A stretch of DNA of 41,753 nt from Rhodospirillales bacterium 69-11 (GTDB taxonomy: Bacteria; Pseudomonadota; Alphaproteobacteria; Acetobacterales; Acetobacteraceae), in NCBI GenBank assembly GCA_001898425.1, contig MKTV01000056.1, positions 1-41,753 of the forward strand, in the 5' to 3' direction. The notes beneath the pieces are model-generated. The model saw nothing but the letters and a program-made list of their open reading frames with translations, did not search any database and had not been told where the DNA came from. This document shows, one piece after another, positions 4,528-38,698 of the stretch. Position 1 is the first letter of the stretch; each line of letters begins with the position of its first letter. Position numbers and translations under genes: made by a program.

Positions 4528-5719
4528 GAAGATCACCGCCGTCCGCCTGCTTCGCCTGCGTGGCACGATGCCGACCGAAGGGCCGTTCTGGGAAGAGCGC
4601 CTGGTGCGGCCGATCGACATCTACCCCGATTACCGCGCCCGCGACGATTTCGAAGGCGGTATCCAGCGCGATCCCTCGCAGTTCACGCTCGAGCAGCATT
4701 TCCTGCGCATCGAGACGGACGAGGGGCCGATCGGCATCGCCGGTCCGCTGCCCGACATGGTGGCGCTTTACGTCGCGCGCCGGCTCCGCCCGCTGCTGCT
4801 GGGCCGCGATCCGATCGCGCACGAGGCGCTGTGGGACCAGATGCACCGGTTCATGGTGCATGGCCGGCAGGGTGACGCGATGCTGGCGATCTCGGCCGTC
4901 GATTGCGCGCTCTGGGACCTCAAGGGGCGATGGTTGAACGTCCCCGTCTACCGCCTGCTGGGCGGGCCGACCCGCGACGCGGTGCCTTGCTACGCCTCCA
5001 TGCTGGGGTTCGCGGTGCGCGACCTGGGCCGCGTGCGGGCGCGGGCGCAGGAATACAAGGCGCGCGGCTACACGGCACAAAAATGGTTCTTCCGGTTCGG
5101 CCCCGGCAGCGGTGCCGAAGGATTGGCGCAGAACGTCGCCCTGGTCCGCACCCTGCGGGAGGCGCTGGGCGACGAGTACGACATCATGCTCGATTGCTGG
5201 CAGGCCTTCGACCCGCTCTACGCCACGGAGCTCGCCGAACGGATCGAGGAATACCGGCCGCGCTGGCTGGAGGAATGCGTGATGCCCGACCGCATCGACT
5301 CCCATGCGCGGGTGAAGGCGGCGACCCGGATTCCGCTCTCGGGCGCGGAGCACGAGTATACCCGCTGGGGGTTCAAGCGGTTCGTGGAGGCCGAGGCGCT
5401 GGATGTGCTGCAGCCGGACATCTACTGGGCGGGCGGGTTGTCGGAGACGCTGAAGATCGCGGCCTATGCCTCGGTGCACGACCTGGTGGTGATCCCGCAC
5501 GGGCACTCGACGCCGGCGGGGCTGCATTTCTCACTGGCGCAATCCCCGTCGCTGACGCCCTACCAGGAGTTCCTGGTGAAGTGGAACGCCATCAACCAGC
5601 ACTTCCTGGCGCATCCGCTGGTGCCGACGGACGGGGCTCTGGGCCTTCCCGTGGAGCCGGGTCTCGGGATGGATCTCGATCCGGCGAAGATCGAGGATCA
5701 GGTCGAGATCGAGAGCTGA
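4526..5719 (+). CDS. Enolase-superfamily sugar-acid dehydratase, L-rhamnonate dehydratase-like (397 aa)
   Basis: This is a mandelate racemase/muconate lactonizing-type enzyme with an N-terminal capping domain and a TIM barrel. The expected Mg2+ ligands are present: D223 (MLDCW), E249 (WLEE) and E275 (LSGAEH). H325 (VIPHGHS) serves as general base/acid, and K186 lies in a QKWFFRFGP segment very like that of rhamnonate dehydratase. Length and motif spacing fit RhmD, which dehydrates L-rhamnonate to 2-keto-3-deoxy-L-rhamnonate; related acids cannot be excluded. The ATG has GAGGAAA upstream. No other rhamnose genes are nearby. The 3' end overlaps the convergent hpnG gene by 22 bases. Confidence 0.85.
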   Translation: MKITAVRLLRLRGTMPTEGPFWEERLVRPIDIYPDYRARDDFEGGIQRDPSQFTLEQHFLRIETDEGPIGIAGPLPDMVALYVARRLRPLLLGRDPIAHEALWDQMHRFMVHGRQGDAMLAISAVDCALWDLKGRWLNVPVYRLLGGPTRDAVPCYASMLGFAVRDLGRVRARAQEYKARGYTAQKWFFRFGPGSGAEGLAQNVALVRTLREALGDEYDIMLDCWQAFDPLYATELAERIEEYRPRWLEECVMPDRIDSHARVKAATRIPLSGAEHEYTRWGFKRFVEAEALDVLQPDIYWAGGLSETLKIAAYASVHDLVVIPHGHSTPAGLHFSLAQSPSLTPYQEFLVKWNAINQHFLAHPLVPTDGALGLPVEPGLGMDLDPAKIEDQVEIES

Positions 5720-6663
5720 CCGACCTGCCCCACCTGCGCCAGCAGGGCGCGCCGCGCGGCGGCGGCATCGCGGGCGAGGGTGAGCAGGGCGGGGAGCTGT
5801 CCGGGCCGGGTGAGCACCGACCCGATCACGCGCGCGAGCCCGATCGCGCCGCTCCGGTCGAGCGCGGCGAGGGCGGCCGGGGGGAGGTCACGTTCGGCCG
5901 GATCGCAGACGGCGCGCAGGATGGCGAAGGGCAGGCCGGCAGCGGTCGCGGCCTGCGCGACGGCGCCGGATTCGAGGTCCACCACATGCGCTCCGGTCGC
6001 AGCATGCAGCGCCCGCTTGTCCGCGGCAGTCGCCACGATGGCGGCGGGGGCGAGAAGCAGGTGCGGCGTGGGCCCGCCGAGTGCGCGGGAGAGAGCCGGG
6101 GAGGTGGTGAGGGACGGGGAGGGGGTGAGGGACGGGGACGGGGTGAGACACGCGGAGGGGGAGGAGGCCGCCCCCAGTGTCATGGCCGGCGAAGGCCGGC
6201 CATCCACGACTTTCGCCTGTGGAGTCGTGGATGGCCGGGTCAAGCCCGGCCATGACGGAGGGGGAGGGGGCGAGCCCGGCCATGACGGAGAGGGAGGGGG
6301 CGAGCCCGGCCATGACGGAGGGGGAAGGGTCGGGCCCGGCCGTGACACGGCGGGCGTTGCGTCCGGCCATGACGGAGGAGGAAGGGTCGGGCCCGGCCGT
6401 GGCCCGGGGGGCATCGCGCCCGGCCATGACACGGGGGGAAGCACCACGCCCTCCGGCACCACGATCATCCCCGGCCGCAGCGACGGATCCAGGCCGCCGG
6501 CCAGTCCGAAACTCACCACGCCGGTGGCGCCGCGGGCGATCAGCCGCGCGACCGCGGCCTCCGCGCCGGCAGGGGTGCCGCCCCCCACCTCCACCGGACA
6601 GCTCAACCCCGCCGCGAGACGCGCCTCCGCCGTCAGGCCGACGACGATCCCGATCAGGGTCAG
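5698..6663 (-). CDS. hpnG: Hopanoid-associated phosphorylase HpnG with an in-frame repeat insertion
   Basis: HpnG is a nucleosidase-fold phosphorylase that releases adenine from adenosylhopane, giving phosphoribohopane. Visible family parts are GLTAEARLAAGL near the N-terminus, GVVSFGLAGGLDPSLRPG, and, after an insertion, TGAHVVDLESGAVA and GLPFAILRAVCDPAERDLPPAAL (in pieces). About 110 residues of Pro/Ser/Trp-rich repeat (roughly residues 78-190, units like SWPGSPPP) interrupt the domain; they are encoded by a palindromic repeat and its partial tandem copies, yet the frame stays open. Without it the length (about 210) is normal. There is no ATG/GTG/TTG in frame near the start: a CTG at 6663 overlaps the TGA of shc (CTGA) and is the best candidate. 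It ends the hpnE-shc-hpnG operon. Confidence 0.75.
   Translation of the reverse strand: MTLIGIVVGLTAEARLAAGLSCPVEVGGGTPAGAEAAVARLIARGATGVVSFGLAGGLDPSLRPGMIVVPEGVVLPPVSWPGAMPPGPRPGPTLPPPSWPDATPAVSRPGPTLPPPSWPGSPPPSPSWPGSPPPPPSWPGLTRPSTTPQAKVVDGRPSPAMTLGAASSPSACLTPSPSLTPSPSLTTSPALSRALGGPTPHLLLAPAAIVATAADKRALHAATGAHVVDLESGAVAQAATAAGLPFAILRAVCDPAERDLPPAALAALDRSGAIGLARVIGSVLTRPGQLPALLTLARDAAAARRALLAQVGQVGQLSIST
6179..6256. repeat. Palindromic repeat (GTCATGGCCGG family) inside hpnG
   Basis: This is a 78-bp long hairpin. GTCATGGCCGGCG at the left pairs with the CCGGCCATGAC end at the right, and an inner arm GGCCATCCACGACT pairs with AGTCGTGGATGGCC. Being 26 codons long it keeps the hpnG frame. The same palindrome occurs at 35811-35901 and, degenerate, at 38561-38655, both between suf genes. 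Confidence 0.9.
6257..6430. repeat. Tandem partial copies of one palindrome arm inside hpnG
   Basis: Six units of 27 or 30 bp each end in CCCGGCCATGAC or a close variant, starting at 6257, 6287, 6317, 6347, 6374 and 6404. They directly continue from the right arm of the 78-bp hairpin. Each unit length is a multiple of three, so the frame of hpnG is maintained, and the encoded peptide repeats the motif SWPG-PPP. A less regular purine-rich repeat (GGTGAGGGACGGGG twice) lies on the other side near 6105-6150. Confidence 0.85.
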
Positions 6664-12235: not shown

Positions 12236-13039
12236 TCATGGCAGCGCCAGCCCGCCGCCGTCGAGCGGCAGCGCGTGGCCGGTCAGGCTCCGCGTGTCCG
12301 GCCGCAGCAACCAGGCGACGGTATCCGCCACCTCCTCGGGCGCGATGATCCGGCCGGTTGGCAGGCCGGCACCGGCCTGTTCGGGGGTGATGCCGAGTTC
12401 CCGGAAGCGCTGTCGGGCCATGTCCGTGTCCACCCAGCCGGGGCAGATCGCGTTCACCGTGATGCCGCGCGGCGCCAGCGCCAAGGCGAGCGCGCGGGTG
12501 AAGCCGACCACGCCATGCTTGGCGGCGCAGTAGGCCGTCTGGTCCGGCACGCCGCGCAGCCCCAGGATCGAGGCGATGGTGACGATCCGCCCGGTCCGGT
12601 CGGGCAGCAGCGGCAGGGCCGCCTTGCAGCAATGATAGGTGCCATGGAGGTTGCTGCCGACGATCGCATGCCAGAGCGTGTCGTCCCCGGTCAGGTCGTT
12701 GGCCCCGGCGATCCCCGCGCAGGTCACCAGGGCATCCAGCCGCCCGAACCGGTCGCGGATGGTCGCGAACAGGGCGGCCACCGAGGCCGCCTCGGCGACG
12801 TCGCACGCGAGGAACACGGGCCCCGACTCCCCCCCTCCCCTTGCGGGAGGGGGCTGGGGGGAGGGGGCGGTCGGGGCTGAGCCGCGAACCTCCGCCGGCA
12901 CCCTCCCCCCAGCCCCCTCCCGCAAGGGGAGGGGGGGTGTTCGAGCGCAGGTCACCACCTGCCAGCCGTCAGCGGACAACCGGTCGGCGACGGCAGCGCC
13001 GATCCCGCGCGTACCGCCCGTAACCAGGGCCACTCTCAT
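12236..13039 (-). CDS. Short-chain dehydrogenase/reductase with an in-frame repeat insertion (267 aa)
   Basis: This is a Rossmann-fold oxidoreductase of the FabG-like type. The cofactor motif TGGTRGIG is at residues 8-15, the active-site Ser in ASILG, and the Tyr/Lys pair in YCAAK; the usual NNAG is replaced by TCAG. Between strand two (VVTCAR) and strand three (FLACDVAEA) there are about 39 extra residues rich in Pro, Gly and Arg, encoded by a perfect 37-bp inverted repeat with a 35-bp loop. Removing them gives a normal length of about 228. The frame is intact, and the insertion falls in a loop, so activity may survive. The start at 13039 is 10 bases after the preceding SDR, so the two are co-transcribed. 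Substrate is unknown. Confidence 0.88.
   Translation of the reverse strand: MRVALVTGGTRGIGAAVADRLSADGWQVVTCARTPPLPLREGAGGRVPAEVRGSAPTAPSPQPPPARGGGESGPVFLACDVAEAASVAALFATIRDRFGRLDALVTCAGIAGANDLTGDDTLWHAIVGSNLHGTYHCCKAALPLLPDRTGRIVTIASILGLRGVPDQTAYCAAKHGVVGFTRALALALAPRGITVNAICPGWVDTDMARQRFRELGITPEQAGAGLPTGRIIAPEEVADTVAWLLRPDTRSLTGHALPLDGGGLALP
12829..12937. repeat. Perfect inverted repeat inside an SDR gene
   Basis: A 37-bp arm at 12829-12865 (C-rich start, then TTGCGGGAGGGGGCTGGG) is exactly complementary to 12901-12937, around a 35-bp loop. It belongs to the CCCTCTCCCGCGAGG-like palindrome group common between genes, but here lies in frame within coding sequence, adding a segment reading LPLREGAGG and then PSPQPPPARGG to the protein. 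Confidence 0.92.
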
Positions 13040-14842: not shown

Positions 14843-14892
14843 CCTGCGTGCTCGCCCTTCCTCCCCTCGCGGGAGGGGGCCAGTTGGAGGGG

Positions 14893-15282
14893 GCGTTCCT
14901 GGGTTCCCTCCGTCGTGCCATTACCCCGATCGCCCCCTCACCCCAGCCCTCTCCCGCGAGGGGAGAGGGGGCGTTCGTGGGTTCCGCCCGTCGTGCCATC
15001 ACCCCGATCGCCCCCTCACCCCAGCCCTCTCCCGCGAGGGGAGAGGGGGCGTTCGTGGGTTCCGCCCGTCGTGTCATCGCCCCGGTCGCCCCCTCACCCC
15101 CACCCTCTCCCGCGAGGGGAGAGGGGGCGTTCCTGGGTTCCGCCCGTCGTGCCATCGCCCCGGTCGCCCCCTCACCCCCACCCTCTCCCGCGAGGGGAGA
15201 GGGGGTGTTCTTGGGATTCCCCCAACGTGCCATCGCCGCGATCGCCTCCTGGTTCCAGCCCTTTCCCGTGGGGGGAGAGGGG
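14893..15282. repeat. Five tandem 78-bp palindromic repeat units
   Basis: Units start at 14893, 14971, 15049, 15127 and 15205 with an exact 78-bp period; the last is degenerate and a partial unit precedes at about 14865. Each carries a hairpin with CCCTCTCCC paired to GGGAGAGGG around a short GCGAG loop, plus a GTTCCGCCCGTCGTGCCATC-like linker. Because 78 is divisible by three the plus strand stays open and gives a spurious repeated peptide (PSPQPSPARGEG). The array fills the 448-base gap between binding protein and ATPase of the same operon. Confidence 0.93.
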
Positions 15283-15290
15283 GGCGCGGC

Positions 15291-24129: not shown

Positions 24130-24169
24130 GCGAAGCCGACCGGCGAGCGGCCGCGCCCGTCGCAGCCGG

Positions 24170-24264
24170 GCCGGTCGGGCGAAGCCGGGCCAGTCGGGCG
24201 AAGCCGGGCCAGTCGGACGGAGTCGGGCCAGTCGGAAGGACCCGCGCCAGTCGGAAGGACCCGC
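24170..24264. repeat. Five tandem 19-bp repeats
   Basis: Units of 19 bp start at 24170, 24189, 24208, 24227 and 24246 (consensus GCCAGTCGGGCGAAGCCGG, drifting to GCCAGTCGGAAGGACCCGC in the last two), with a truncated sixth. They lie between the MATE stop and the convergent DUF1501 gene. There is no obvious function; a slippage-type minisatellite is likely. Confidence 0.9.
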
Positions 24265-24286
24265 GCCAGCCGCGCCCGTGCAGCGC

Positions 24287-35745: not shown

Positions 35746-35810
35746 GCGCGGGCTCCGATGCCTGCGAGGGCGCTGTCCACTCGTATCGTGGCCAACGCAC
35801 GGCCGCACCG

Positions 35811-35901
35811 TGTCATGGCCGGCGAAGGCCGGCCATCCACGACTTGCCGAGTCGTGTGCAGCACAGCCGTGGATGGCCGGGACAGGCCCGGCCATGACAC
35901 G
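35811..35901. repeat. Palindromic repeat (GTCATGGCCGG family) between sufS and sufU
   Basis: Perfect 14-bp outer arms CGTGTCATGGCCGG (35811-35824) and CCGGCCATGACACG (35888-35901) enclose a second arm pair built on GGCCATCCACGAC and GTGGATGGCC. It is closely similar to the copy inside hpnG at 6179-6256. It lies within the suf operon and would fold in the mRNA. Confidence 0.93.
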
Positions 35902-38500: not shown

Positions 38501-38655
38501 CGGTGTCATGGCGCGCCTTGTGCCAGCCACCCGCGACATGGCGGGCCTTGTGCCAACCCCCGGTGTCATGCCCGGCCTTGTGCCGGCCATCTACGACTTC
38601 GCCGCGTGCACCCAGGAAAGTCGTAAATGGCCGCCCCTCGGCGGCGATGACACGG
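38501..38655. repeat. Degenerate palindrome with two partial tandem arms between sufC and sufD
   Basis: A degenerate copy of the GTCATGGCCGG-type hairpin spans about 38561-38655 (start CGGTGTCATGCCCGG, inner CTACGACTT/AAGTCGTA, end GCGATGACACGG). Before it lie two further partial arms of about 30 bp at 38501 and 38532 (each with GGC-TTGTGCCA). The layout, partial arms next to a full hairpin, repeats that inside hpnG. Confidence 0.8.
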
Positions 38656-38698
38656 GGCGCGCGCGTCGGCCGCGACGCGGAGTGTCGGAAATCCATCA

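Follow-up and report, generated by a model that had tools for sequence, protein, structure and literature searches.

The window, that is, the whole stretch of DNA analyzed, covers 41.75 kb of a genome of 6.48 Mb in 124 contigs, labelled G000 here; G030 and G023 are relatives of the same genus. On its minus strand, a single open frame at 5698..6663 (321 residues from the first CTG) is hpnG, the gene for a hopanoid-associated phosphorylase/nucleosidase. HpnG is described, in the accessible text of one source, as a putative phosphorylase that converts adenosylhopane to ribosylhopane by stripping off its adenine (PMC12583986). The gene is placed in the hopanoid cluster, directly after the squalene-hopene cyclase gene shc, which adjoins it upstream and scored 774.1 bits against TIGR01507 in a profile search (cut-off 431.1). 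HpnG matches TIGR03468 in two stretches split by an insert (E 2e-50). As a whole protein it reaches 171.3 bits, below the curated cut-off of 187.1, yet both flanks align to the family, which agrees with an earlier interpretation made from the letters of the window (the sequence-only reading) that the frame is open and resumes family sequence after the insert. PF01048 also matches the frame, and the family motifs GLTAEAR, DLESGAV and CDPAE are intact.

No ATG, GTG or TTG was found in frame near the hpnG start. Instead, there are CTG codons at 6661-6663 and 6655-6657, the presumed start overlapping the TGA stop of shc (6660..6662, minus strand) and the other codon following it. Judged from this arrangement, a putative CTG start of hpnG coupled to the shc stop is possible. 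In five relatives of the same genus or family (L014, L016, L018, L025 and L027), CTG is the sole codon resembling a start that was listed in frame close to the first strand.

The added segment of HpnG is encoded at 6109..6441 (minus strand, approximately residues 75-185) and lies between predicted strands 72-74 and 184-186, as delimited by alignment, loop lengths and a structural model; the limits first proposed, 6100-6435, were close to these. VPEGVV (residues 69-74) and LSRALGG (residue 191 onwards) are separated by 116 residues, and about 105 residues, rich in proline, are extra. At the core of the segment is an 80-bp heterodimer of CGTC-type REPs (6178..6257), with tags outward and tails inward. 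Monomer 1 (6178..6206, plus strand) has a TGTC tag (6178-6181), a 9-bp stem ATGGCCGGC/GCCGGCCAT, the loop GAAG and a CCA tail, and monomer 2 (6228..6257, minus strand) has a CGTC tag (minus strand, 6254-6257), a 9-bp stem ATGGCCGGG/CCCGGCCAT, the loop CTTGA and a CCA tail. Six tandem truncated REP units of 30, 30, 30, 27, 30 and 27 bp (6258..6431, minus strand) stand on the hpnG-upstream side of the pair, each made up of a tag, the first stem arm and a spacer; their tags end at 6287, 6317, 6347, 6374, 6404 and 6431, as found by repeat search and direct reading. The same two approaches bore out the initial description of a palindrome with six partial arm copies of 27/30 bp in frame in hpnG, the palindrome measuring 80 bp by the present bounds and 78 bp in that description. 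An 18-bp tandem repeat of 3.6 copies (6097..6161) marks the far end of the added segment and lies partly inside it.

The minus-strand frame is open across the whole insert, with HpnG sequence on either side. We rejected this openness as strong evidence because shuffling the bases of the insert leaves the frame open in 38% of versions. A protein search with HpnG residues 112-176 alone returned nothing useful (one match at E 6.4).

Both monomers are built like CGTC-tagged REPs, whose layout in the accessible text of Di Nocera et al. (2013; PMC3733652) consists of a CGTC or TGTC tag, a stem of 8-9 bp that begins with AT, a loop of 4-5 nt and a CCA tail. In each, an unpaired tag (CGTC, or TGTC/CCTC) is present at one end, the stem is within 8-9 bp and starts with AT, and the short loop and the CCA tail are in place. 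Copy number and pairing fit as well, as G000 contains 52 + 38 pattern matches (0 for the reversed-pattern control), with 44 REP pairs across the 37 G000 stretches examined. A profile search for PF01797, the only transposase class searched, found none in G000 (the control was positive in 5 of 14 genomes). With at most two mismatches, the repeat pattern was present in 37 of 145 genomes searched, the window's own genome included, and the reversed control again gave 0; the 145 included 88 genomes of the same family, 32 of them with the pattern. The family is taken to be Acetobacteraceae because the HpnG of G023 (L004) reads as the protein P0012, which bears the name 'Acetobacteraceae bacterium'. 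For Lichenicola cladoniae, another member of the family, the accessible text of a 2025 survey gives 1,369 REPs by that survey's own definition (PMC12306157).

The HpnG hairpin loop has 121 residues in G000, versus a usual 16 (46 of the 63 relative loci measured). Its length is 12-21 residues in 62 of the 63 loci, and the exception, G023 with 63 residues, carries a different high-copy palindrome in the same loop. This palindrome has 84 matches on the two strands of G023 together (40 of 178 candidates scored), 84 in G000 and 44 in G030. A copy of the G023-type palindrome is also found in the window at 12823-12935, 80% identical to the repeat inside G023 hpnG. The sequence-only reading had named the same proline-rich segment in relatives without the palindrome as the observation that would speak against it, and the relative loci gave no such case, the one long loop holding another palindrome. 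The alignment of relatives for which it had called is less uniform at the protein level, where a few metagenome entries, compared as protein, have long loops without REP translation, among them P0003 (53 residues, proline-rich, sequence unlike REP translation) and P0124 (no obvious repeat translation).

Among 165 HpnG-like proteins, a set that is biased because it was gathered by similarity to two insert-bearing queries, internal insertions of at least 8 residues were located at the hairpin tip in 16 proteins; two more proteins had one in a single nearby loop, and all others were close to the termini. By a separate measure, a long loop segment was present in 15 of 144 measurable HpnG-like proteins (of 166). 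P0119 was considered as a third repeat in the hairpin and set aside, as its insertion maps to the neighbouring loop. In an AlphaFold2 model (77 sequences), pLDDT was mostly above 90 in the HpnG core, and the blocks that make up residues 81-180 had values of 39-60. The added segment is thus predicted to be disordered at the tip of a beta-hairpin, which matches the earlier expectation that it loops out.

The same insert was found in G030 (JAFKLG010000067.1, a Rhodospirillales MAG), whose HpnG is 72% identical to that of G000 over residues 3-321. The REP pair, its site, its orientation and the order of its monomers are the same in both genes; G030 hpnG has two truncated units on the opposite side of the pair from the G000 array, and tandem host-like codons (VPEGG) stand where G000 has its array. 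A metagenome protein, P0002, contains a translated REP pair at the same point, without expansion. We judged a single insertion inherited by G000 and G030 to be more likely than two independent ones, since the two genes agree in site, orientation and monomer order. With P0002 as query, 334 of 397 family genomes matched, with G000 and G030 the best two among the matches listed in a search that splits matches, so that other carriers are possible. Between G000 and G030, dN/dS was 0.134 for the N-terminal flank (72 codons) and 0.238 for the other (131 codons), with dS 0.52; by these ratios, the hpnG flanks evolve under purifying selection. The simplest reading of the sequence comparison would be one old insertion into a gene kept under purifying selection, followed by lineage-specific array growth.

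The repeat is not confined to hpnG. The initial claim of one palindrome in a hopanoid enzyme that has expanded stands as regards presence and growth, but hpnG is only one of several host genes in G000 and G030. We examined 36 stretches around other high-scoring copies in G000 (40 of 369 candidates scored) and 36 further stretches in G030 (40 of 255 scored), using a codon-usage screen and Pfam. In G000, REP copies lie inside megasynthase frames of the ketosynthase type and with adenylation domains. In G030, they lie in a polyketide synthase (PKS) frame, in an adenylation domain (borderline score), in a molybdopterin oxidoreductase and in a condensation-like frame without Pfam match. An empty site for the oxidoreductase insert was searched for in G000, and the insert was found there instead: the G000 molybdopterin oxidoreductase also carries the REP, with two plus four truncated units, whereas the script found none in the G030 counterpart. 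In-gene copies are therefore undercounted, because the G000 oxidoreductase copy had been missed by the sample. When translations are compared by eye, the sites in the PKS, adenylation and condensation-like frames of one genome have counterparts in the other, and the arrays differ. The coding-screen frames L040:3550-5022 and L099 (both condensation-like by eye) and L107 had no Pfam match and were left out of the identified genes.

Further repeats were noted along the way. REP dimers recur at the same point of the adenylation domain, just before the EFLGREDFQVKVQG motif, in the three frames L034, L065 and L100, two of which belong to G000 and one to G030. The window contains another REP dimer at 35801-35898, where no spanning frame looks coding on either side of it at once, and a 30-bp tandem repeat of 2.8 copies at 38507-38589, within a region (38505-38669) that is matched by the repeat of the G030 oxidoreductase in translation. 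Two more tandem arrays are present at 14887-15283 (approximately five 78-bp units, 90% matches, containing CCCTCTCCCGCGAGGGGA) and at 24163-24269 (19 bp, approximately 5 copies).

Inside genes, the arrays change in steps of three bases. A score rule applied to G000 and G030 gave 11 in-gene dimers and 69 other dimers. Array steps, which are non-independent within one array and for which 'other' copies may hide genes and megasynthase modules may share duplicated insertions, were divisible by three in 27 of 27 in-gene cases (including the 4 of 6 hpnG spacings within the script's mismatch limit) versus 62 of 143 others (p 3e-9). Divisibility by three, first remarked for the six units in hpnG, thus holds for in-gene arrays elsewhere. 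Counted per locus, all steps were divisible by three at 8/8 in-gene loci versus 12/52 others (p 5e-5). Adding two Pfam-verified borderline loci gave 29/29 versus 60/141 steps, an earlier hand-picked set had given 29/29 versus 26/68, and G030 by itself is a weak replicate (4/4 versus 31/67, p 0.054). Because in-gene status itself demands a net frame, we also calculated the chance that all in-gene steps divide by three given only net frame zero per locus; at 6e-7, it meets only partly the circularity of an in-gene status that rests partly on frame.

The reading frame of the dimers is also restricted. Among 89-bp dimers, stops occur in the RPST inner frame on 2 of 31 strands and in the remaining two frames on 20 and 17 of 31. 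RPST, or its variant RPPT, is the frame read in each of the 13 in-gene dimers that were examined (L118 among them) and in the later-found G000 oxidoreductase copy, and the 80-bp dimer of hpnG is read in the same inner frame that 89-bp dimers usually keep stop-free. A lone REP, not a dimer, in the L034 megasynthase is read in another frame, as SWMAGPSPAMT. A rule that in-gene dimers are 2 mod 3 long (11/11 versus 19/69) was weakened by the 88-bp in-gene dimer of the G000 oxidoreductase, an array whose steps are multiples of three despite that dimer length.

Truncated units have on average 3.97 mismatches of 17 to the adjacent full REP, versus 6.02 to REPs at other loci (92 units), and local duplication therefore fits. 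Truncated-unit arrays are also common at extragenic copies, and growth is therefore a property of the repeat itself.

Taken together, these results make it quite probable that a selfish REP was tolerated at a permissive, predicted-disordered hairpin tip, where it grew by local duplication and was filtered by translation. Retention for a function appears unlikely. A disordered proline-rich segment could change how HpnG oligomerises, touches the membrane or admits the hopane tail, and the insert has been kept in three lineages. PDB relatives of HpnG, the MTA/SAH nucleosidases, have a longer loop at the insert point in a sequence-profile alignment, and in those enzymes the loop contributes to the substrate pocket of the neighbouring subunit. 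However, the length and composition of the expansion vary between lineages, an unrelated repeat occupies the same loop of G023, and the same elements are found inside unrelated proteins. A role at the RNA or DNA level, for example through a hairpin that dampens or stabilises the transcript of shc and hpnG, with translation incidental, would agree with the discussion of REPs as transcript-level elements (in the accessible text of PMC3733652) and with hairpins that the pair, judged by its sequence, could form. We regard it as quite improbable, because the arrays are frame-locked, which argues that the protein constrains the repeat, and 62 of the 63 relative loci do without a long loop.

It is very improbable that hpnG is decaying into a pseudogene in these lineages and that its frame is open by accident. 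The lack of a nearby ATG, GTG or TTG start and the 38% of shuffled inserts that stay open speak for this, but several relatives with an ordinary hpnG also have CTG as the sole start-like codon, dN/dS is 0.13-0.24 in both flanks, the three motifs are intact and every hpnG array step is a multiple of three. We give almost no credence to the idea that HpnG is produced as two polypeptides, the second of them initiated within the repeat array. A public G030-like HpnG, P0123, does begin at an ATG within the array, but the absent canonical start suffices to explain that gene call, and the N-terminal flank is in the same frame and has the lower dN/dS of the two.

A tolerated repeat, not an innovation of the enzyme, is thus the most likely account. 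In this account, a CGTC-type REP heterodimer would have been inserted into the HpnG beta-hairpin tip in a common ancestor of G000, G030 and the source of P0002; it is read in the usually stop-free inner frame. Truncated units would then have been duplicated in tandem, separately in each lineage, as the arrays differ, most likely via replication slippage at the hairpin. Array changes not divisible by three would have been lost because the gene was still needed; the pattern is seen in the arrays, and the selection behind it is what we infer. The approximately 105 added residues would be tolerated rather than useful.

In bacterial coding minisatellites, copy number within genes shifts in units divisible by three. 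The in-gene arrays resemble them in this respect and differ in that the unit is a fragment of an interspersed palindrome, with extragenic growth free of the three-base rule. With the CGTC-tagged REPs, as far as the accessible text describes them (PMC3733652), they share the tag, AT stem, short loop, CCA tail and paired units, and also a mainly alphaproteobacterial distribution and some intragenic copies. That text describes the family as having no dedicated transposase; of such enzymes, PF01797 was looked for in G000 and not found. That text has the family missing in Acetobacteraceae and its clusters rare, whereas many genomes of this genus have it in abundance, with tandem truncated units that are frame-locked in genes. 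Rickettsia had been put forward as the known case, and its palindromic elements (RPEs; Ogata et al., 2000, 2002, via PMC10969869 and PMC3733652) are indeed in-frame palindromes in unrelated genes, apparently tolerated. In-gene palindromes are, however, known well beyond Rickettsia, and the accessible text equates RPE-6 and RPE-4 with CGTC-1 and CGTC-4 (PMC3733652). By description, RPEs are approximately 150 bp long (PMC10969869), whereas the REP pair seen here is shorter and has one arm expanded in tandem. In-gene REPs and RPEs are thus already published (PMC3733652, PMC10969869); what appears to be new here is the frame-locked tandem growth of truncated REPs and the repeated colonisation of one loop. 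A literature search poor in subscription titles brought up no description of truncated-REP arrays within genes and none of repeats in hpnG, and absence from print is not established by it.

Gene callers can shorten repeat-bearing proteins of this sort, which calls for caution. Two unrelated high-copy palindromes at one enzyme loop are a marker of a permissive site. A bolder reading, which we consider unlikely, is that the REP family supplies enzymes throughout the genome with disordered linkers that grow while locked in frame. The pairs would sit at the tips of loops and where domains join and would be kept across species, with units that expand and shrink as coding minisatellites and tune length in HpnG, PKS/NRPS modules and molybdopterin oxidoreductase. 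The findings show in-frame palindromes in a further group, a genus of the Acetobacteraceae, which are reported, in the accessible text, to be without CGTC REPs (PMC3733652). They also provide a natural comparison of one repeat inside and outside genes, with the three-base rule confined to places where translation would act as a filter.
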